Below are positions 4,011 to 63,430 of a stretch of 64,000 nt of DNA, piece by piece. Where the stretch lies: contig OX485805.1 of NCBI GenBank assembly GCA_950295325.1, positions 35,265,501-35,329,500 of the forward strand. Reading direction: 5' to 3'. This DNA is from Polytrichum commune (Eukaryota > Streptophyta > Polytrichopsida > Polytrichales > Polytrichaceae). A model generated the notes under the pieces. That model saw nothing but the letters and a program-made list of their open reading frames with translations, searched no databases and was not told the origin of the DNA. A program made the translations under genes and the position numbers. Position 1 is the first letter of the stretch; each line of letters starts with the position of its first letter.

Positions 4011-4326
4011 GTCCTCACCCCCACTACACCATTTTGCGACCTACCACACACCATTTGCGACCTCCCAACCAGCCCCCCACAGCTGTACCTACAGCCCGGT
4101 CACAGAGCTAACCCTCTTCTTCCGCGCCTGACGCTCTCAACTGAGAACCCTGTCTCTTGCATGTTCTCGCACCATCTTCTTCTCTTCGCTTAGACCTCCT
4201 TCTTGGTGGCCGGAGCTCCCACTGTCACTCGCATCGCGCTACGCTGTCTCTCCGCAGCCTGACCTGCTCCTCCTCCGCTCCATTTTGCAGCAGCTCAACC
4301 CCTTCCGGGGCTCGTAAGTCGTCAAG
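4011..4326 (+). promoter_or_regulatory. Beta-tubulin promoter-proximal region and 5' leader
   Basis: C/T-rich sequence directly before the tubulin ATG, typical of a plant 5' leader. Two near copies of CCATTTTGCGACCT / CCATTTGCGACCTC lie at about 4029-4065. If transcription starts upstream of 4161, the mRNA would carry a 10-codon upstream frame (ATG at 4161, stop at 4191-4193). I could not place a TATA box or start site with confidence. Confidence 0.45.
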
Positions 4327-6349
<2,023 letters not shown>

Positions 6350-16300: not shown

Positions 16301-16866
16301 CTTACTTTCAGTTCATCCACTTTTGATATATGTTGCATCTTAACATTCCCTTGATGAAATATGATCATGCATGATTGACATTTGGATGAACAATCACTTA
16401 CTAAGTGATAGTAATTGCAACATTGTAGATCTATAACAATTATTTTCCAATAAGGAATGACAAGTAATGTTAGGTTTGGATTTAATGATGGTGATACTAC
16501 ATGGGTGGTTTGCAATTGGTATTGAGCAAGACAAATAGGAATTGGTGACCCTAAAAACAATAATTAGTGTGGTGTGTTTTGATGTGCATTAACTTCAATA
16601 AGGCCTTTCTACGTTAAGTCTTGGACTCACCTTCGTCTCTCTTTGGAGGGGTTGCGGGGCTCAAACCCTGGCTTCTCGCTTTCTGTGTTCGCAGCAAGCG
16701 AGGACTTCTCCTCCGCACCGTCTTCTGTCGTCGTCGTCGTCGTCGTTGTCGAGGAGGGCTCCGGGGTCCGCAGCCAGGCGGGCGGGCGGGAGGGGAGAGA
16801 AGGGGAGAGGCATTCTTGGGAAGAAGGAAACGAGAGAAGAAGAGGGCTTCAGAGTTACGAAGCGAA
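13320..16866. other. Divergent intergenic region, no gene recognised
   Basis: Spacer between the kinase (minus strand) and succinyl-CoA ligase (plus strand) genes, so it should hold both promoters. An AC microsatellite lies at 15766-15788. A CGTCGTCGTCGT run at about 16726-16748 sits in the likely 5' leader of the ligase gene. Two loosely similar blocks carry a TGTCTTACCTCCA word near 15100 and 15295. The other frames show no recognisable protein. Confidence 0.5.
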
Positions 16867-17865
16867 ATGAGAGGGATTGGGCGAATTGGGAGGCAAGTGG
16901 GGCGATGGCTGGCGGGGGAGGAGCAGCGGAGGGGTTTCGTTTCGGAGCTAGGGCGTCGTGAGCTCTCGACGCAGCCACCGGTGTTCGTGGACAAGAACAC
17001 GCGCGTGATTTGTCAAGGGATCACGGGCAAGAATGGCACATTCCACACGGAGCAGGCCATCGATTACGGAACCAAGATGGTGGGGGGAGTGACGCCGAAG
17101 AAGGGCGGGACGGAGCATTTAGGGTTACCGGTCTTCAACTCCGTGGCGGATGCTAAAGCTGAGACGAAGGCCAATGCGTCGGTCATCTATGTGCCGCCAA
17201 AGATGGCGGCTGCGGCCATTTTGGAAGCGGTGGAGGCGGAGCTTGACCTTGTGGTGTGCATTACGGAGGGGATCCCGCAGCATGACATGGTGAAGGTGAA
17301 GTCGGCTCTTTTGTCACAGTCGAAGACGAGGCTGATCGGGCCGAATTGCCCTGGTATTATTAAGCCTGGGGAGTGCAAGATAGGTATCATGCCTGGGTAC
17401 ATCCATAAGCCCGGGAGGATTGGGATCGTGTCTCGGTCCGGGACATTGACATACGAGGCGGTGTTCCAGACCACTGCTGTAGGGTTAGGTCAGTCGACGG
17501 TGATCGGTATTGGGGGGGATCCTTTCAACGGGACCAATTTTGTGGATTGCCTGGAGAAGTTTGTGAATGATCCACAGACGGAGGGCATCATCTTGATTGG
17601 AGAGATTGGAGGCTCGGCCGAAGAGGATGCTGCACAGTTTATTAAGGATTGTGGAACTCAGAAGCCAGTAGTGTCTTTCATTGCAGGGTTGACTGCACCG
17701 CCCGGGCGGAGAATGGGGCATGCTGGAGCTATCATCTCCGGAGGCAAGGGTACAGCTCAGGATAAGATTCAAGCACTGAGAGCTGCAGGTGTAACTGTGT
17801 GCGAATCGCCCGCCCAAATTGGAGGGACTATGCTGCAAGTGTTCCAAGAGCGTGCCCTAATTTGA
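16867..17865 (+). CDS. Succinyl-CoA ligase alpha subunit, mitochondrial
   Basis: Alpha subunit of succinate-CoA ligase (succinyl-CoA synthetase), which with the beta subunit interconverts succinyl-CoA and succinate with nucleotide phosphorylation in the mitochondrial TCA cycle. One uninterrupted frame of 332 residues. The first about 35 residues, beginning [17 protein letters not shown], are Arg-rich without acidic residues at the start, as in a mitochondrial presequence, ending near RRELSTQ. The CoA-binding Rossmann part follows ([36 protein letters not shown]). The ligase part then has [38 protein letters not shown] and the active-site [10 protein letters not shown], with phospho-histidine at about residue 285. 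The frame stays open upstream to 16621, but with no ATG, so 16867 is the start. Intact throughout. The absence of introns is notable. Confidence 0.96.
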
Positions 17866-23717: not shown

Positions 23718-25352
23718 TCAACCACAAGCATTTGGGGGGCCCACAAAAACTTTGGTTGAACACACTCAAACTAGTTGGAAATTCAACCCAACCCAACCCA
23801 ACCCAACCCCCTGTGCGGCCCCCCCCCCCAAATATGACAATCAAACATTACGTAAAATTATCAATGAGACAATTGGACACATGTAGACATAAATAATTAA
23901 AAATATAAATGTATAAAAATCATATCATAAATTTTTATTATAAAAATATAGCTTATCAAATGAATAAAATAAAATATTAAATGAAAAGACATGATGTACA
24001 ATAATAACATAGATACATTTTGTAATGCATGGCATATCTTGAGAAAATATGTTATTTACCCTACAAGCCCTATAATTTACGCATTAGCTAGTGATGCTTA
24101 ATAATTTATTACACTACGCAAACTACAACTCATAGTTTTTATAAGCAACACCTCAACTTCACGATGTGATGGCATTCGCTTGAACCTCAGGTTTTGCATA
24201 GTAATCATGTTCATGCATTTATTAAATATTAAGATGTTTATGAAACTTAAAAATCTTTGTGAATAAGTTCAATTTATGCAACGGGCCAATTATAAATTTG
24301 CAAGTCAATAAAGTACATGAAATAGAAATGTATAAAATCATAATAAGATCCATGTAAACACCTTTCCAAAAAAATACCTACATCATACCCACCACGCCCC
24401 GAGCAACAAAAAAAGTTGACCACAACACATAATACTTTACTACTTGGAAGTATATCTTGCATTTTGAGGAATCAAGATTAAAAAATTAACATGCATATTT
24501 TGATTGCCTTGAATTATTCAAAATACATGATATTTCTTGAATTAAAATACGGTAGGGAGATTTAATTGAAAAATTTGCAAGCTATTGCGGTATGACCCTG
24601 CATTAAATGTGTCATCTTTTAATAAAATTTAATCATCATAACTAAAATATTATAAAATTCATGTGTTGGAGAAAGAATTTTTATTAATTAGATTATAATA
24701 TATAAATAAGTTTTAAATAGGTTTTAAATAGGTTTTAAATTTTAAATTTGAAGCCTTGAAGTTGATAATAGTTTTGAAATTAAAACGTTCCCAAGTTGAG
24801 ATAGACCCAAATAACAAAAAAGTTGATTATGCCATGTAGATATGAAGATCTCATAAGAAAGATATATTAAGTTGGATTTAGATTATGATGAAGCTATCAT
24901 GCCCGCCATTAAAGCGACGATAATGTCTGCCAAAGTGGTATATATTACTCAATAATGCTTATTTTATAAATGTATTTGATGTTGTTAAGTACTTAACTTA
25001 TGTTTTAAAAAATGCATTTTGATAATGTGTAATAACATGTTCAATTTTAGAAACTTTACAAGTTTTAAAGATTCTAACAATACATATATTTAATATTAAA
25101 GTGCATTTATCTAACAAGGCAACAAACAACTCTCGAAATCGGATACATTAACAGTGACATAATTTGTCATGGATATGCAATTTAAGAGGAAAGTTTATTG
25201 AGACGTAGAATAATAGATAGCGAGTCATAATTCATTAGCTAGAATTTTTAAAAGTCATAAGACTTAAACAATAAAAAATCGTCGGTGATGAAAGAGACTA
25301 TAGATTATAAAATGAAAGTAGAAAATTTGCCAAGAGATTGGACCTCACACTC

Positions 25353-25684
25353 GGGGGGGGGGGGTAGTCATTGGTTGGAGTAGCAATATACGTGCGAACA
25401 AATGATAGGGTATTTTTAAAACATGGGGGCAAAAAATTATAAATGGACTTAAGAGTAATATAGGGTATCAAAAATGGCACTGGACATCTTTAAAGTACTA
25501 TAGGGTATGGAATAATAGGTAATTTGGAATTATAAGTAATGCAAGCCATTTTTCTATTAACCCAAAGTAAAAAATTACATAATGATAGCATGTGAAAAAA
25601 AGAAGAGAATTGAAAATAATACCCCCTATAAAATAGTGGTTGTTCGCACCTATATCCTTAACTTTTTAACACAGTGCCCCCCCC
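25353..25684 (+). repeat. G-run/C-run-bounded dispersed repeat, copy 1
   Basis: A 332 bp sequence opening with a long G run then TAGTCATTGGTTGGAGTAGC and ending AACACAGTG plus a C run. It matches 60192-60520 in inverted orientation over its whole length, including the words GTGCGAACAAATGATAGGG and GCACTGGACATCTTTAAAG. It is non-coding, probably a non-autonomous element of unknown class. Confidence 0.85.
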
Positions 25685-28300
25685 TCGAGACCTCACAAGG
25701 TTCATATACGTATGATTTCTGTATTATGTGATTATGAAAAAATACATATTTTAACATTAAATTATATAAATTTTCAATATCAATATTTGATGGATAATTT
25801 TAATATTTCAAATGACTTAATACTTAAAACAATTCAAGTGTAATCTAACACATTACATTACTGTCATAATTTTTGTAAACTTGTTTTTGACTTTAGAAAC
25901 AAAATGTCATGGCAGAAGTGCATTACGAACTAGACACTAATAGGCAATTATTGAACTTTTGCGTTTCACTTGCACATACAAGTGGATGATATGATTGTGA
26001 TGCCCAAGTGAAAAATTTTAATTATTTTATAGCAATTTAAATGTAATACCTCACACATTGGCTTTTTCCCTTTTTTAATTGGTGTGCATTTCAAATATAA
26101 TATTTGTTCAAGTTGATGACCTTCTTGCAATGAATTTGTTACCTTATATTTTGAAATAAAAGTATTATATTTTTATGATTGGAGAGTTTAATTTGTCCTT
26201 ATGAGATAAAGCAAATTCTCAGGCACATCAATTAGATATATAAAGAAGAGTTCACCCCTTGGGTTTGTTTCCATGATTTTATGCAACATTTATTTTATTC
26301 AAAAATAAATGTCAGCATTTAATATATACATCCAATGTGAACAACACATAAAACATTAAGTCATTCTGATTCAATCATTAAATGCCCAAGATGTGTATGG
26401 AGAGATATCAAATTACAATTATACAATGTTTGAGCTTATACAAATTGCCTATATTCAAATACATATCACATAAATTTAATCAATATTACTAAATGTAATT
26501 TTTTAAAATCTAAATGATTGAGGTAAGCATGGACCAAGTCAAATATTATTTTGTGACTTATTAGAGATTAAAATTTGATATAAAAAAATGTCACAAATTA
26601 TATGTTGACCCATTATATGTCCTTTAAGGATTAGATTGCATGTGCATTTTGTTGGAAACCAAGACAAACCTAGATCTCTGGATTGCAAGAGATCATAATC
26701 AAGGGCAAGCTAGAGGAATATGTAAGGTTTAGGTATCTAAAAAGAGTTTGCATTTGTTTAGGAGGAGTAATAGCACGGAATTTATTTTCTTGCAGAGAGA
26801 AACAAATTCTAAGGGGAGCCCAAATTTTTAATTTTCATGAATATGGAAATTGCTACAAATTTTAAAGTGGTAAATTTAGGGTAACACATAGTTTATTTAT
26901 AGGTTAACCCATAACCACTCATATACATTCTAATGCTTGGCTACAAGAGTTGTCAAAACTCTTATGAGGGTAATCAATCACAAACCACCACCACATAAAG
27001 TAGAGGCGTCTGCTCCCGATGAAGACCCCATCGGCAATCTATGGGGTACCAAAATTTTGATAAAATTGGGGCTGACATTCGATCAAGTCGGAACCAATAG
27101 TGCCATGATACATGTCTTGGTTTTGAGTGAGAAGGAATGAGCGGTTAAAATGAGCAGTTATGGCATACTCTAGACAATGGTAATATGTTCAAACCAACTT
27201 TTGGCTTCAAAATTCACAGTAATTTAAATTAAAGGAATATTATTACCGAGAGTTTTCCAATCCTCCGAATTTCAATCTTCTTACACATAAAAAAATTGCA
27301 CCGCCTTATACTGTTCTTGATTTGACGTAGAATCTCCGAAGTGATCGGTTATAGGCGCCTCTACTATAAACCTTAACTTTGTTCGCCCAACCAATATAGA
27401 TCTCATCCATGTTGGCATTACATGACCCTAGTGAGCGGTTAATGATGGATGCCTCGACCTTAATGGTATGAGTCAAGAAGAATGAAAGTTGAAATAAAAT
27501 GAACTTAATGCAATATTTTATCTCAAAAAACTAGTAAGATTTTATGGAAATATGGGCACACGATTGAAAAATAAGTGTAAAAAGAGTTCATGTCAAACTA
27601 AACCACAGTTGATACAAAGGATGCTAGCCTATACTTTCCTTTGCCCTTAAAGCTCCCTTCCCGTGCCACTTAGGAATCGTACTTAAACAGCATAATTGTA
27701 GTTTCTGCTGGATGATTTTCATTTGTACCATCATAATCTTGGATGATTATTTTTCCTTATACTAAAGATTGCACCAATTTTAGTTTATCATCAAAAGATA
27801 ATCCAAAAGAAATGTTGCAATATACACATTACGAAATGTGCGCCAATTGTTTTATGATAGAAGTGTACAAAACTACTAGTAGATTTACACAAATGTAAGA
27901 ATATAACAAATCCGAACTGTTTTTTTTTTTTTTAAAAGTCTAATAAAGAACTATAGTTCATGAAACAAAAGTGTTGTTACATTGTCACAAAAACAAGTCA
28001 ACCTGCAATGAATTTGTGTGATGTAACATTGTTGTTACAAATTGACCTACAAAATCGATGCATGGTTGTACTACATGTGTTACATGAAATATAACACATC
28101 ATGTGATTGACAAAACATGAAGGTATGTGGCAAATTTGTGCAAACAAGAGAGAATATCATATCTAGATCATTTTTTCTTTGAAAAATAAAAATCGAAATA
28201 AAGGTAGAGATCAATGCGTCATAGAATCTTCATAAAACAAACAACGATTTGTATTGTAAGCATATGGCATAACAAAAGCAATCTATCTACATTAGTGAGA

Positions 28301-31953: not shown

Positions 31954-32443
31954 GGGCCACTTCACACACGAGACTGAGAGCCCGTGACCGTTACACTTCA
32001 AGCACTCTCATTGGTGGAAAAGGCGAAGCCGGTCCAAGTTCACTTCACACTACGCTTGAGGGACCAACAGAGTTTGTGAATGCAAGATCGATGTAACGTC
32101 TACATGGATTCCTACGTGGCATCAAATGGATCGTGTTTCATGGTCACTTGGACTAACCTCAAAAACCACCTCTTGGAGGTAGGCCTAACACAAAACCGGG
32201 AGACCGTGGCACTCCAAACCGTTGGTTTCTTCTACTTTATCATGTGTGAGGACCTGCATGAATAGACATTCATTGAAATAGCATTTGGTTGAGGGCCCGG
32301 TTACATATGACTTCACGCTACACTTGAGGGTCCGTGACCACACTACATGAGTTTGGACGTGTCTTGGAACGGCCTTCAGACACTTCCTTTTGGGCTCTCA
32401 CAATTTCATGGTCACGGCTCTTGGCTCGTGTGTGAAGTGGCCC
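31954..32443 (+). mobile_element. PIF/Harbinger-like MITE, copy 1
   Basis: A 490 bp element with inverted ends GGGCCACTTCACACACGAG and its complement, flanked on both sides by TTA (31951-31953 and 32444-32446). A 3-bp TTA duplication with G-rich ends is the hallmark of PIF/Harbinger elements. There is no transposase inside. The sequence right of it (32447-32700) is shared with the copies at 35 and 37 kb. A 105 bp stretch is then tandemly duplicated at about 32600-32806. Confidence 0.85.
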
Positions 32444-52493: not shown

Positions 52494-53825
52494 CAGTCTA
52501 ACCTTGATAATGTCACCCTTGTTAATAGAACACCTTGATATTGTCACCTAAAAGTTTCAAACCGATTTTCATAGTGTAAAACTCCCTCGTTATTATCCCT
52601 ATCACCCTTGGTAATGTCACTATTTTTTTTCCAAAATGCGTAGTGTAAATGTGATAATACCAAGTATGGATGGATTGTATGTGATGGTTGGATGGATAGA
52701 TTGTAGTAGCCGAAAGGGTCATGCGCCGCCCCTGTGATACATTCTAACCTTGATATTCATGGTGAGGTCAAGAAAGTTATAGATGGGTTTAATGCTTTTG
52801 TACTCTCCCATATCACTATCTTGTTCCTTCCACCAAATGTGACTTCAGTTGTTCAACCTTTGGATCAAGGAGTGATTGCAACATTCAAAATGTGCTATAA
52901 GGGCAAGCTTGTTGTCTGGACTTTGCAACAAATTGATAACAACTCAAATGAAGATTTGAGGAAAGTGAATGTTGATCTATTTCAAGCTATGCTATGGTGT
53001 GTGGCGGCATGGCATGAATTAGATGATCTAACCATTAGAAATTGTTGGAGAAAGTCCTCCATATTGCCTACAGAGTGGAATGCAGATATCAACAATTTTG
53101 ATGAATGTATGAAGTCCAAAATGGAGGAAGCAACTTTGGAAATGGGCAATCTCATCGCCGCATTGAATTTGGGTTTGGATGTCGAAGGCAAGCCTGTAGA
53201 AAAGCTTTGTCCTTTGGAATACATAAACATGGAAGGTGAAGATGATTTTGAGGTGGAATATTCTATTGAGGAGCTTGTGCAATTAGTGCAAGATGGCGAA
53301 CAAGTTCTTGATTCCATGGAAGTAGACCCATTGATTGTTGATAGCAGTGATGATGAGTCTAAAGTAGTGAAGCTAAGCGATGCACAAAAATATGCTAAAG
53401 ATGTTTTGAATTTTATGGCTAGCCAAGGTACTCAAATTTTCAACACTCTGGAGTTGTTAGGAATGGAAAAAATCCATGACAAACTCATTAGAATTGGTGT
53501 TGCACATTTAACATCAACAAAACAATGTGACATTAGAAGCTTCTTTGACTCTAGTGAGAGGTCTTTACCTGATCTCAATGACACATTATGATGTGCTCTT
53601 GTTGTTATTCACAATTTTGAATTAGATTTTACATTCAAAAACATTGAAGTCTTGTATTTGTTATTTTTTTTTACATTGTAATTTTATTTTGATTTTCTTC
53701 CTTTTTTTTGATAATATCACATTATGCACAAATCTTCAAAATGTGACATTATCAAATATGTCACACCTTGTTTATATCACTCTTTTTGGTGAAACGGATG
53801 GTGTGACATTATCAAGGTTAGACTG
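52494..53825 (+). mobile_element. pogo/Tigger-like DNA transposon, internally deleted
   Basis: 1332 bp with perfect 23-bp inverted ends starting CAGTCTAACCTTGATAATGT, flanked by TA on both sides (52492-52493 and 53826-53827). Further copies of a TTGATAATGTCAC-like motif lie inside each end: near 52531 and 52607 on the left, and near 53707 and 53742 on the right. They are probably transposase binding sites. The interior holds only the C-terminal part of a transposase. Confidence 0.88.
52734..53591 (+). pseudogene. pogo/Tigger-like transposase, C-terminal fragment
   Basis: A 285-codon open frame with no ATG near its left end. It opens just before FLPPNVTSVVQPLDQGVIAT, the conserved stretch that carries the third catalytic Asp of pogo/Tigger (DDE_1) transposases. 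The rest resembles the acidic C-terminal part of that family (for example EEATLEMGN and DSSDDES). The helix-turn-helix DNA-binding region and the first two catalytic Asp motifs are absent, so it cannot be an active transposase. The frame from here to its stop is intact, which implies either recent loss of the front half or slow decay. Confidence 0.85.
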
Positions 53826-57726: not shown

Positions 57727-58071
57727 ATGAACGGGACGAAGCGGCCACTAGTTACAAACGAACCGGTTGAAGTTCAAGAGTTTGGGTTCATCATCGATCA
57801 CTTTAAAGGAAGTTATGGAGCATATATACTTACTCCAAACCGACAAGGAAGAAAGACCGAAAACAATGTGAACGGGGCGAACCGGCCACTAGTTACAAAC
57901 GAACCGGTTGAAGTTCAAGGCTTTGGGATCATGATCGACCACTTTAAAGGAGGTTACGGAGCATATATATTTACTCCAAACCGACAAGGAAGGAAGAAAG
58001 AGCGGAAACAATGTGAACGTGTGAGCGGTTGGACGTGGGAAGCAAGCAGTATCATAGAGGCACGAGGGTGA
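57727..58071 (+). CDS. Unknown small frame with internal 141-bp duplication
   Basis: A 114-codon ATG frame encoding two tandem 47-residue repeats, each with RPLVTNEPVEVQ, IDHFKG, YGAYI and TPNRQGRK, then a short tail. I recognise no family. The repeats differ at about 12 positions, most of which change the amino acid, so there is no sign of protein-level selection. It may be a duplicated non-coding repeat that happens to stay open. Confidence 0.2.
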   Translation: MNGTKRPLVTNEPVEVQEFGFIIDHFKGSYGAYILTPNRQGRKTENNVNGANRPLVTNEPVEVQGFGIMIDHFKGGYGAYIFTPNRQGRKKERKQCERVSGWTWEASSIIEARG

Positions 58072-58380
58072 TGAGCGAAACGGCCCAAATGGCGCGTGGG
58101 GAATTTGTGATAGGTCGATGCATGGCCAAGTGGGAAGTTGGGGAGCAGCTCTAGTAAGCTGTGGGGCTTGGGGTTGTCGGTGGCTGTCAGAAAAGCTGTC
58201 ATTCTAGCATCAGCATCACGTACGATCCTGTGCATTGAATCACGCTGCCCGCACTCCGTTTATAATGTGCAAGTCAAGATAGGCGCCACCGGACCCCCCG
58301 AAACGAGAAAGCAAAGAGAAAGAAAGAGAAGGACAAAGAAAGAGAAAGCGGCCTTACGATGGCCTTCAATGGCTTAAGGG

Positions 58381-60168
58381 GGGCCACTTTGCACACGAGA
58401 CTGAAGGCCCGTGACCGTTCTATTCTAAGATCTCTCATTTGGTCGAAAAGGCCGAGACCGTCCAGGTTCACTTCACACTAGAAAGCATTACGATGGCCTT
58501 TGATTCAGTTGTCATTGCTCAATAGGGGTCACTGCACACACGAGATTGAAGGCCCGTGACCGTTGTATTCTAAGATCTCTCATTGGTCGAAAAGGCCGAG
58601 ACCGTTCAAGTTCATTTTGACACTAGAAGGCCTTATGATGGCTTTCGATTCGGTTGGCATTGCTCAATAGGGGTCACTTCACACTCGAGATTGAAGGCCT
58701 ATGACCATTGTATTCTAAGATCTCTCATTGGTTGAAAAGGTCGAGACCGTCCAGGTTCACTTCACACTAAAAATATATTATGATGGCCTTTGATTCAGTT
58801 GTCATTGCTCAATAGGGGTCGGTTCACGCATGAGATTGAAGGCCCGTGACCATTGCATTCTAAGATCTCTCATTGGTCGAAAAGGCCGAGACCGTTCAAG
58901 TTCATTTTGACACTAGAAGGCCTTATGATGGCTTTCGATTCGGTTGGCATTGCTCAATGGGGGCCACTTTGCACACGAGATTTGAAGGGCCATGACCATT
59001 GTATTCTAAGATCTCTCATTGGTCGAAAAGGCCGAGACCGTTCAAGTTCATTTTGACACTAGAAGGCCTTATGATGGTTTTCAATTCAGTTGGCATTGCT
59101 CAATAGGGGTCACTTCATACCCGAGATTGGAGGCCTATGACCATTATATTCTAAGATCTCTCATTGGTCGAAAAGGCCGAGACCGTTCGAGTTCATTTTG
59201 ACACTAGAAGGTCTTATGATGGCTTTTGATTCGGTTGGCATTGCTCAATAGGGGTCACTTCACACTCGAGATTGACGGCCTACGACCATTGTATTCTAAG
59301 ATCTCTCATTGGTCGAAAAGGCCGAGACCGTCCAGGTTCACTTCACACTAAAAAAACATTATGATGGCCTTTGATTCAGTTGTCATCGCTCAATAGGGGT
59401 CAGTTCACGCACGAGATTGAAGGCCTGTGACCATTGCATTCTAAGATCTCTCATTGGTCGAAAAGGCCGAGACCGTTCAAGTTCATTTTGACACTAGAAG
59501 GCTTTATGATGGCCTTCGATTTAGTTGTCGTTGCTCAATGGGGGCTTTGCACACGAGATTTGAAGGCCCGTGACCATTGCATTCTAAGATCTCTCATTGG
59601 TCGAAAAGGCCGAGACCGTTCAAGTTCATTTTGACACTAGAAGGCCTTGTGATGGCTTTCAGTTCAGTTGTCATTGCTCAATAGGGGCCACTTCACACAT
59701 AAGATTGAAGGCCCGTGACCATTGTATTCTAAGATCTCTCATTGGTTGAAAAGGTTGAGACCGTCCATGTTCACTTCATACTAGAAGGCCTTACAATGGC
59801 CTTCGATTCAGTTTGTCATTGCTCAATAGGGGCCACTTCACACATGAGACTGAAGGCCCATGATCATTGCATTCTAAGATCTCTCATTGGTCGAAAAGGC
59901 CGAGACCATCCAAGTTCATTTTGACATTAGAAGGGTGAAACCTAAGGGTCCAAAAAATTTATCATGGGTGAAAAGTCTACATATATTCCTACATGATGGA
60001 ATACGGATTATGTTTCACGGTTTTCTAGTATTTGTGTTAGGCACACCTCTAAGAGGTAGTAGGTTTGACATACCATGTCAGTTAAACAATCGGTACAACC
60101 TTTGGATGAGAGTCGAAGGCCCTCACAATTGCATGGTCATGGCCTTTGGGTCATGTATGAAGTGACCC
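58381..60168 (+). mobile_element. Harbinger-like MITE with its left end amplified into a satellite
   Basis: Eleven tandem units start near 58381, 58525, 58670, 58815, 58959, 59106, 59251, 59396, 59540, 59684 and 59829 (spacing 144-147 bp). Each opens with a form of the MITE left end (GGGCCACTTTGCACACGAG or a variant), continues with GGCCCGTGACC, TCTAAGATCTCTCATTGGTC and GAAAAGGCCGAGACCG, and closes with a linker of about 45 bp ending TTGCTCAATAG. After 59935 the remainder of the MITE follows once (GGATTATGTTTCACGG, CACCTCTAAGAGGTAG, and right end GTATGAAGTGACCC at 60168). Units 3-5 pair best with units 7-9. Confidence 0.88.
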
Positions 60169-60191
60169 TAGGATACTTACTTGAGTTCTCA

Positions 60192-60520
60192 GGGGGGGCA
60201 GTGTGTTAAAAAGTTAAGGATATAGGTGCGAACAACCACTATTTTATAGGGGGGTATTACTTTCAATTTTTTTTTTTCCACATGCTATCATTATGTAAAT
60301 TTCTACTTTGGGTTAATAGAAAAATGGCTTGCATTACTTATAATTCCAAATTACCTATTATTCCATACCCTATAGTACTTTAAAGATGTCCAGTGCCATT
60401 TTTGATACCCTATATTACTCTTAAGTCCATTTATAATTTTTAGCCCCCATGTTTTAAAAATACCCTATCATTTGTTCGCACGTATATTGCTACTCCAACC
60501 AATGACTACCCCCCCCCCCC
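60192..60520 (-). repeat. G-run/C-run-bounded dispersed repeat, copy 2 (inverted)
   Basis: 329 bp, the reverse complement of 25353-25684 with few differences, 35 kb away. It has the same run-of-G and run-of-C borders. Confidence 0.85.
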
Positions 60521-63430
60521 GAGCTTGAGTTATATGGTCGCTCCTCTTAATCAAACATCTAGTAGGTAAGTTGAGTGGCAATGCTTGTAGGGCATCATTG
60601 TGTGTTACCATGAGACTGAACTAAGGTATGTGGGTGCTATTCGGTCCATTTTCCATGTTTAGCAACTTCTATCAATTGTATTTACACAATGAAACATGTG
60701 TTGCATTAGTGAATTTGAAGCATGAGCAAAAAATATGTTTGAAAATTAGATCTTTCTTGATTTAATTATTGTTATTGAAAATCGATGTTTGTTGATTCCT
60801 TACTTGAATACATAGGTCCTTCCAATTGTGTTCATTATTGAGTGTGAATAAGCTAACTTAATAAAATTTGAAGATGTAGTCTAATATTTTTCAAACACAT
60901 GGCCTTATGGTATTTGTTCCTTGATCATGGTGAAGCATACGCAAATCAAATATAAGTGTCCAATTAAGAAAAATAATTGAATAACACCCCACACCTTTTG
61001 TGCTCAAACTATAATCATCATTTTAGGTTCAATTGCTAATACTTGGGAGGGTCTATGGGATTGCTTAAGAGAACGAGAATCTTCACATTGAGCTCTTATA
61101 AACTATGCATCTCAACTTTGATTTTGAAACATGATTGGACAATCTATGAGGTTTGTAATTTCTAAACAGATGATACACATCTTGGTCCAATCCAATGGCC
61201 AAAATTGTGTGTGGAGCTGGAAGCGCCTACAATAGGCCCACATATGTTATACGTTGTACAATGTGTGCACCAATCCCTCCAACTTTCCTCCTAGGCTTGA
61301 ATATTTTCCACCATGTAAATTTCTATTGGATGGTATCATCTAACACCCTATCATTCTATATAAATTTTAGAGTTGCATAATTATAATCACCCTATCTTAT
61401 TTATAAGTAGTAGAAATTTTGTGTGAACAATCTGCACATACATTACGCATTCAACACACTATGCATACATTACACTACGCATATATTACTCTGCACATTA
61501 CACACATACTATAAACTTTAGCATATTGCGTATGATTCTTGAACCCCCCAGGAAACCCTAAGCAAGCCAGCCAACCCTTCCATCGCATGATGATGGTACT
61601 TTTCATCCAAACGCGACCGTTTCAATGAATCCATCCACATGTCCACATACATTTTGCCTATTTCTCATCCAATGCCACTAATGGCAAATAATTTATGTTG
61701 AACCTATAAATAAATATATCTAAATTATATTCTATTATAATTATACTTTACATCTAAATAAATAAATAAAACCACACTGTACATTACGTATAATTCCCAA
61801 ATTCGCGTTTAGAGGACGCAATTGTATATCACCTACTTATAGGGTGGACATTGGATACAATGTGGGCCAAGTAGTCTCTCTTGTGTTGAAATACAACTTT
61901 ATATTTAGGAAAACATGATTATCATTATTGGTTCTGACTAAAATATTCCAACCTTGCGACCATTGGATTTTCTCAAAATATGTTGCAATACATTCTTTCC
62001 ACATCTTCATAGTGGACTTGGATTCCAAATCCAAATGTTCAGTCAAAACAAAATAAATGTTGGTGATAGTGGGTCAAATGCCTTCAACATCTAGGGCGGG
62101 TATGAAAATTTCAAGTTCTTTAAAATGCACCTTGGGGAAAATAAAGGCTACCTTGCACGGGGGGTGCACCTACACTTGATTTAAATATACACGTGTAAGA
62201 ACCCATGTTTAAGGGGGGGTTTATTTACCTTCCTTTGTTGAATATTTTCCACTCTATAAGTAGGAGGATATTGGATACATGTCGAGATCACCTTCAAACC
62301 CTCAGCAAGCTTAGACGGTGTAACCCGCTGCTGACCGGTTTACATGGAAGTTACTCCCACCAAAATTAGTTTCTCTTAGTTTCCAAAACTTGTGAAGGTG
62401 TCCGTTAACTCTTTGTTGACTAATTCTTGTAATCTTTAATTTACTGCTCTTGAATCCTCTTGGAATCGTTGACCTGAGGTTACAAGTTTATGTTCCCCGA
62501 AATCTAATATTAAAGTGCTCTCTAAGAAACTACTTTCCCTAGTTCTTAATCATCTATTCGCTCTTGCATCTTTCATGGTTTGAAAGATATCGCAAGATAA
62601 TCTTATTTCTTCAAATCCGGAATGTTGTATTTTAAGATCCCTTTTATAAATCTCCAAGGAGAAAGTGCCTTAGGTTTTCAAGGTTATGTTCCCCGAAATC
62701 CTAATGTCGAGGTTAAGTGTTTCAAAGGAAACTCGAAATGTTGCATCCAATATCTTTCATGGTTTGAATGCATCTAATCTTCATTACTTCCCAAGAATAT
62801 TCCGAGAATGTCTTCATAAAGAGTTTCTAGTTCAAAACATATTCTTTAACATTATGAAAATCTTGAGAATCATCTTGTCTCTTTAACCTCGATTATATTG
62901 TGTTGATGGTATCCTTGGTCCTTCAACATTCCAAATTCACTTGAGAATATTTGAGGGATTAGAATCCTTGTTGATTCTAATGTATATGGTAAACCGATTT
63001 CTACTCAAAGATGTTTGATTACTATCACCCTCATTTATGAGTTATTAAACTCATGGCCTAACTTTCCCCAAGTATTCCCCTTAGATGCTTTGAAATCCCC
63101 TTAGGCTAATTCCCTTTGATTTGGATTTAACACCGTGTAATAATTTAATATCTAGTCATACCCGGTATGACGTGATGGTAAGCAGGTAAGCCCGCAACTT
63201 ACCTTCCTCAAATATGAGTGACTTGTGCTTTTACTGTAATGATCTATCTTACTTGGCCGGCTCGAGGTCGGGGATTAACTCGAGTGTACCGCCGAATGAG
63301 ATTTCCTCCTCTCTGTAATTATTTCCCTTCGGGTCCTTCGGCTCGAAATTCTCCTTCGTCAAAGGTCTTAGTTACCGGAGCAAACTTAATCCGAAGCTTT
63401 GACTAATTTGCCTTAGTGTAATAACATGTG
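60521..63430. other. Non-coding spacer with weak repeats
   Basis: About 60640-61000 is a diverged copy of the block near 38750-38960. A loose TACATTACGCAT-type repeat lies at about 61435-61530. Two TTATGTTCCCCGAAATC words occur near 62488 and 62684. No gene recognised. Confidence 0.45.

Follow-up and report, generated by a model that had tools for sequence, protein, structure and literature searches.

The window, by which we mean the whole analysed stretch of 64,000 nucleotides, contains open frames that we take to resemble beta-tubulin (4318-6349), the succinyl-CoA ligase alpha subunit (16618-17865) and a pogo/Tigger-type transposase (52710-53591). It also contains a tandem array that runs into a complete MITE, and the features of this locus are as follows.

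58350-59934, plus strand: array of 11 units, delimited by Tandem Repeats Finder, word spacing, and unit and consensus alignments.
58350-58379, plus strand: first copy of the linker, which the other copies exceed in length by about 12 bp; contiguous with the single-copy host flank.
59788-59829, plus strand: last linker copy, with the left target-site duplication TAG as its final three bases.
59830-60168, plus strand: resident MITE, complete, 339 bp, by end-to-end alignment with 29 dispersed full copies.
59933-59934, plus strand: inner breakpoint of the proposed founding duplication, GG common with host flank 58350-58351.
60169-60171, plus strand: right target-site duplication TAG, by triplet comparison beside the MITE ends.

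The 11 units are arranged head to tail, each of about 145 bp with a shorter first one, and each is composed of about 42 bp of linker followed by about 103 bp of MITE left end. Tandem Repeats Finder called the array at 58380-59934 with a period of 145 and 10.7 copies, and the initial annotation let it begin at 58381; given that the shortened first linker copy belongs to the array, we place its start at 58350. The annotation was right in counting eleven units with a MITE left end in each: a 16-bp word, TCTAAGATCTCTCATT, occurs 11 times in the array with spacings of 143-146 bp, and the MITE parts of units 1-10 are 86.8-93.7% identical to the start of the family consensus, while unit 11, whose MITE part is the first 105 bp of the resident MITE, continues into that one complete element. 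Pairwise identity among the units ranges from 79.7 to 95.9% (mean 87.3%), and an assembly artefact was rejected because the units differ by 4-20%. Satellite DNA is characterized by long or numerous arrays of one monomer, and for a single array of 1.6 kb 'satellite' is too strong a word; the monomer is homologous to part of a MITE and the source element is present, as in a MITE-derived tandem array. A separate 141-bp tandem duplication of two units (57728-58019) lies about 330 bp to the left, within an open frame of 172 codons.

The genome searched comprised 408 Mb, with the window on contig C3; 40 MITE loci were examined, and alignment of 29 full copies gave a majority consensus of 347 bp. Segment 59830-60168 aligned with consensus positions 1-347 from end to end at about 84-84.9% identity, inside the range of the other full copies (82.5-89.9%), confirming the proposal that the same MITE continues after the array. 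Its identity to the consensus is 93% over the first 103 bp and 81% over the remainder, and the best other genomic copies (77-79% identity) start at about 59830 when aligned to it. The MITEs of about 490 bp in the window (starting at 31954, 34272, 35177 and 37166), with which the annotation proposed to align the units, were rejected as the source and represent a more distant subfamily, the closest family being that of 347 bp. The consensus ends are GGGCCACTTCACACACGAG and a near complement, and terminal inverted repeats are present (positions 1-38 against 347-312, 89%). Within the left end, positions 5-29 and 88-112 form an imperfect direct repeat (80%). Identical TTA or TAA triplets stand on both sides of 13 of the 29 full dispersed copies, and in the remaining 16 the flanking triplets depart from TTA/TAA pairing on one or both sides. 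The TTA/TAA target-site duplication is thus seen at dispersed copies, whereas the window copy is flanked by TAG on either side, a difference that counts against the account proposed below. In the part of the Medicago study that we draw on (PMC2213677), the TIR motif G(N)5GTT was used for PIF/Harbinger elements; our consensus starts GGGCCACTT, with C replacing the G of GTT, and is one base off. For the earlier label 'Harbinger-like', then, the duplication and the inverted repeats speak in favour and the motif against, and we provisionally name the element PIF/Harbinger (Tourist-like) from its 3-bp TTA/TAA duplication and its form.

The most likely source of the linker is the host DNA at the insertion site, because its core was found nowhere else, TAG stands at the MITE edge and the first copy adjoins single-copy flank. 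A genome-wide search with the 37-bp linker core at up to 3 mismatches gave four matches, all of them inside the window array; this search is of limited sensitivity, since it recovered only 4 of the 11 known array copies and missed 7, and diverged copies elsewhere would escape it as well. In a search with one unit as the query, in which scoring was limited to the best 40 of 1967 candidates, all 39 listed matches beyond the array had ended by query position 106 and did not reach the linker. Host flank 58031-58380 matches only itself in the genome. The resemblance between linker and left host flank that the annotation had pointed out was borne out, with the word TTACGATGGCCTT at 58354-58366 and 19 of 21 identities between 58350-58370 and the outer part of the linker, a score reached by none of 2000 shuffles. 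The linker was also considered as a piece of the MITE and rejected, its local alignment being no better than those of 500 shuffles (p 0.34 and 0.41 for the two strands). Given that TAG precedes the MITE part in 8 of the 10 units U2-U11 and directly follows the right end of the resident MITE, the inner edge of the linker is probably the original insertion flank, and the linker would be older than the MITE insertion. The local linker core, the single-copy flank and the TAG on both sides agree with the suggestion that the founding duplication captured a MITE end together with its flank. If instead the MITE had hit a pre-existing satellite, or its end had been derived from one, the linker core would not be expected at the window locus only (at up to 3 mismatches), nor the MITE end to be dispersed with other flanks in 29 full copies; we found no evidence for such a satellite, nor a 145-bp monomer widespread without MITE homology, and consider this origin extremely improbable. 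To the right of the resident MITE, a repeat at 60182-60529 begins after 14 bp and has a 95% identical inverted copy at 25344-25695; the two ends of the repeat carry G/C runs, each with CTTGAGTT beside it, and the repeat may be a further small DNA transposon whose target duplication is 8 bp long.

We regard it as highly likely that the array is an ordinary short tandem duplication spanning a MITE end, enlarged by unequal exchange, and one of many such events in a genome rich in short tandem duplications. A PIF/Harbinger-type (Tourist-like) MITE would have inserted at a TAG site, and about 145 bp around its left end, reaching 42 bp into the flank and about 105 bp into the element, would later have been duplicated in tandem. 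At the joint, host 58350-58351 and MITE 59933-59934 share GG (about 2 bp), and the shared run near the unit joints of the window is 2 bp in 7 of 10 and 1 bp in 3 of 10. Judged from the joints, the founding step was most likely the repair of a staggered break by near-blunt joining. Schiml et al. are said to have linked short tandem duplications, in 2016, to the repair of nearby opposite-strand nicks. Such an origin is likewise described in the part of PMC8355091 that we draw on, where, as in the window case, the duplicated segment is short and its joint shows little or no sequence sharing; by contrast, the overhangs of 43 bp in mouse cells in that source are shorter than the 145-bp unit, and for the window we infer the route.

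From this first duplication the array would have grown to 11 units by unequal exchange, and one block was probably copied four units away. Similarity is greatest between units four positions apart (U3/U7 95.9%, U4/U8 95.9%, U5/U9 93.7%), with a permutation p of 0.007 for the four-unit offset and of 0.046 after picking the best of six offsets, giving moderate support to the copying of a block of at least three units over that distance. Two versions of the MITE part are intermixed through the array, a TTTTGAC variant in U2, U4, U5, U6, U8, U9 and U11 and the family state CTTC-AC in U1, U3, U7 and U10 (U10 with one extra adjacent base change). Because the resident MITE, as unit 11, has TTTTGAC and none of the 29 dispersed MITE copies does, the variant points to exchange that involved the resident MITE as well. 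A uniform tandem array would also result if rolling-circle amplification of a circular DNA with the junction had been followed by reinsertion next to the MITE. However, the array is bordered precisely by the very flank and MITE that its units repeat, and at another locus (L062) a dimer of identical units fits stepwise local growth; we consider the circular route quite improbable. The units share a 21-bp invariant core, ATTCTAAGATCTCTCATTGGT, a run that is unlikely by column shuffling (p 0.002). Since column variability in the array follows that of the dispersed MITE copies (Spearman 0.36, p 0.0002) and changes among units are mostly transitions (102 versus 21), inherited composition and mutation bias, rather than functional conservation, may suffice to explain this core; no function of the array is apparent.

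The window array is not unique, and arrays of the same kind occur at other copies of this MITE, at both ends and inside the element. A 27-bp MITE word at up to 2 mismatches had 863 matches in the genome, and a second array was among the matches listed; further arrays were found by paired-word searches and by end-word searches able to see both ends. Because the gapped searches depend on short exact words and cover periods of about 62-163 bp, the array set is incomplete. The matches followed were those with MITE sequence, some MITE matches being left out (e.g. C1:40840147, C2:4323411, C5:17126268 and C3:35004665). Two types of array were seen, internal ones that repeat part of the left end and flank-capturing ones that repeat host flank plus a MITE end, among them the following.

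L054, L056, L067 and L070: internal arrays with repeat lengths of 77, 88, 83 and 42 bp, respectively.
L059: flank-capturing, 110 bp, 13 copies.
L060: flank-capturing, 153 bp, 5 copies.
L066: flank-capturing, 156 bp, 4 copies.
L092: flank-capturing, 68 bp, 12 copies.
L097: flank-capturing, 108 bp, 7 copies.
L079: flank-capturing at the right end, 126 bp, 5.9 copies.
L085: flank-capturing at the right end, 78 bp, 5 copies.

At L092 (positions 1546-2361 of the locus) the twelve 68-bp units stand beside a full-length MITE and consist of about 45 bp of host flank and only about 22 bp of MITE end, with TTA before the MITE part in each.

Capture of flank was scored automatically at 25 loci, namely the window and 24 of the 40 array-search loci, since in the other 16 the arrays were internal, insertions lay side by side or, in L064 and L073, no array stood out clearly. 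The threshold was 13 bp or more of repeated flank, and 14 of the 25 loci passed it, at left and right MITE ends (right: L079, L085 and L086), with L065 ambiguous because its repeated flank passes through another unit. The window was among the 11 that failed: its first linker copy is degenerate and so short that the test extended the flank by 0-2 bp, although the locus passes by local alignment and by joint alignment (14-18 of 20 bases). L058 failed as well, though about 11 bp look alike. Repeated flank and repeated MITE add up to the period within 3 bp in 9 of the 14 passing loci; the sum misses by more than 3 bp in L066, L093 (where about 27 bp of the period are unaccounted for) and L095, and is not computable in L065 and in L061, the latter having no full MITE directly after the last unit. 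L078 and L084, which were in the test, and L081, L082, L087, L094 and L096 resemble insertions nested in or adjacent to one another and were kept out of the array count. The same triplet is found on both sides in 9 of 20 loci (window, L058 in its first unit only, L059, L079, L085, L089, L092, L093 and L095), and the triplets are unlike in the other 11, partly since no true far end was found. By joint alignment with shifts allowed, the run shared by host, joint and MITE was 1-3 bp in 11 of 12 other loci, which include L017 with its 412-bp period, and 4 bp in L066, where the shared run becomes about 7 bp when the host copy may contain mismatches. The joints of L085 and of L062, a two-unit case, match the host at 20 of 20 bases on one side and the MITE at 20 of 20 on the other.

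The comparisons with known systems given here draw on parts of the papers cited. Xstir and miDNA4 of Xenopus are MITE-derived satellite DNAs (PMC9659126, PMC12628747) and, like the window array, are tandem repeats that a portion of a MITE gave rise to or carries; their repeats are element sequence or internal repeats, whereas the window unit includes host flank and is found at one locus. Coral CMITEs also form MITE tandem arrays, in one case with similar intervening sequences (PMC2872659), but they are full-sized and of piggyBac type, while the window array repeats one end plus flank. The Medicago PIF/Harbinger element MtPH-A6-4 has 60-bp subterminal tandem repeats (PMC2213677) and resembles the window case in being a plant PIF/Harbinger element that has tandem repeats next to one end or both; its repeats lie inside the elements and are subfamily-wide, whereas the window array contains host DNA and is private, so that the internal arrays found here (e.g. 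L054 and L056) are closer to MtPH-A6-4 than the window array is. In the parts of the open-licence literature searched, we came across no account of arrays that combine host flank with one MITE end. Taken singly, the window locus is otherwise ordinary. Because the ancestral sequence is known from the MITE and the insertion is marked by its target site, the first duplication is readable almost to the base; as one genome holds many such loci, young arrays become directly comparable in their founding joints, divergence and copy numbers.

The initial annotation saw in this locus the birth of a satellite from a transposon terminus, a reading that would make the terminus special and that our results do not support; the locus holds one short array, like arrays occur elsewhere, and background density could account for them. 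With thresholds of period 60 or more and score 150 or more, Tandem Repeats Finder gave 12 arrays unrelated to the MITE in 277,234 bases; the window holds 3 of them, the 40 MITE loci 1 and the 44 loci L054-L097 the other 8. Their periods total 1,912 bp, placing about 0.7% of positions within a founding unit, and the 80 ends of the 40 MITE loci would therefore be expected to yield about 0.55 terminus-spanning arrays; one was seen (L017). There was no sign of an excess at MITE ends among these 40 loci, a small and non-random sample taken mainly by similarity rank. L017 was taken by rank; L031, L032, L033 and L053 were chosen for a nearby second match and yielded no array in this count. In five of the 40 loci besides L017 (these four and L015) another MITE piece of like orientation lies nearby; the count covered arrays called by Tandem Repeats Finder. 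The other MITE-end arrays could thus be accounted for by the general density of tandem arrays in the genome.

MITE ends might be break-prone or mis-processed in transposition, in which case arrays would be commoner there than elsewhere. The many arrays at both ends of one MITE superfamily would fit this, as would the imperfect 25-bp direct repeat of the left end, which could explain the internal arrays of 77-91 bp. By contrast, the repeated flank reaches from 13 to about 78 bp outside the MITE tip and the repeated MITE 22-144 bp inside, as measured in the captured-flank loci except L061 and L065. Because the repeats extend to either side of the tip, the founding joints lie away from the transposase cut site. 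Together with the single terminus-spanning array at L017, this leaves break-prone ends an unlikely cause. We are similarly doubtful that the ends of this superfamily are true duplication hot spots, where independent arrays, from identical dimers to 13 copies, would leave their founding joints legible by comparison with the MITE and its target duplication. Elsewhere in the window, positions 809-1926 hold a tandem array of 318-bp units in 3.5 copies.
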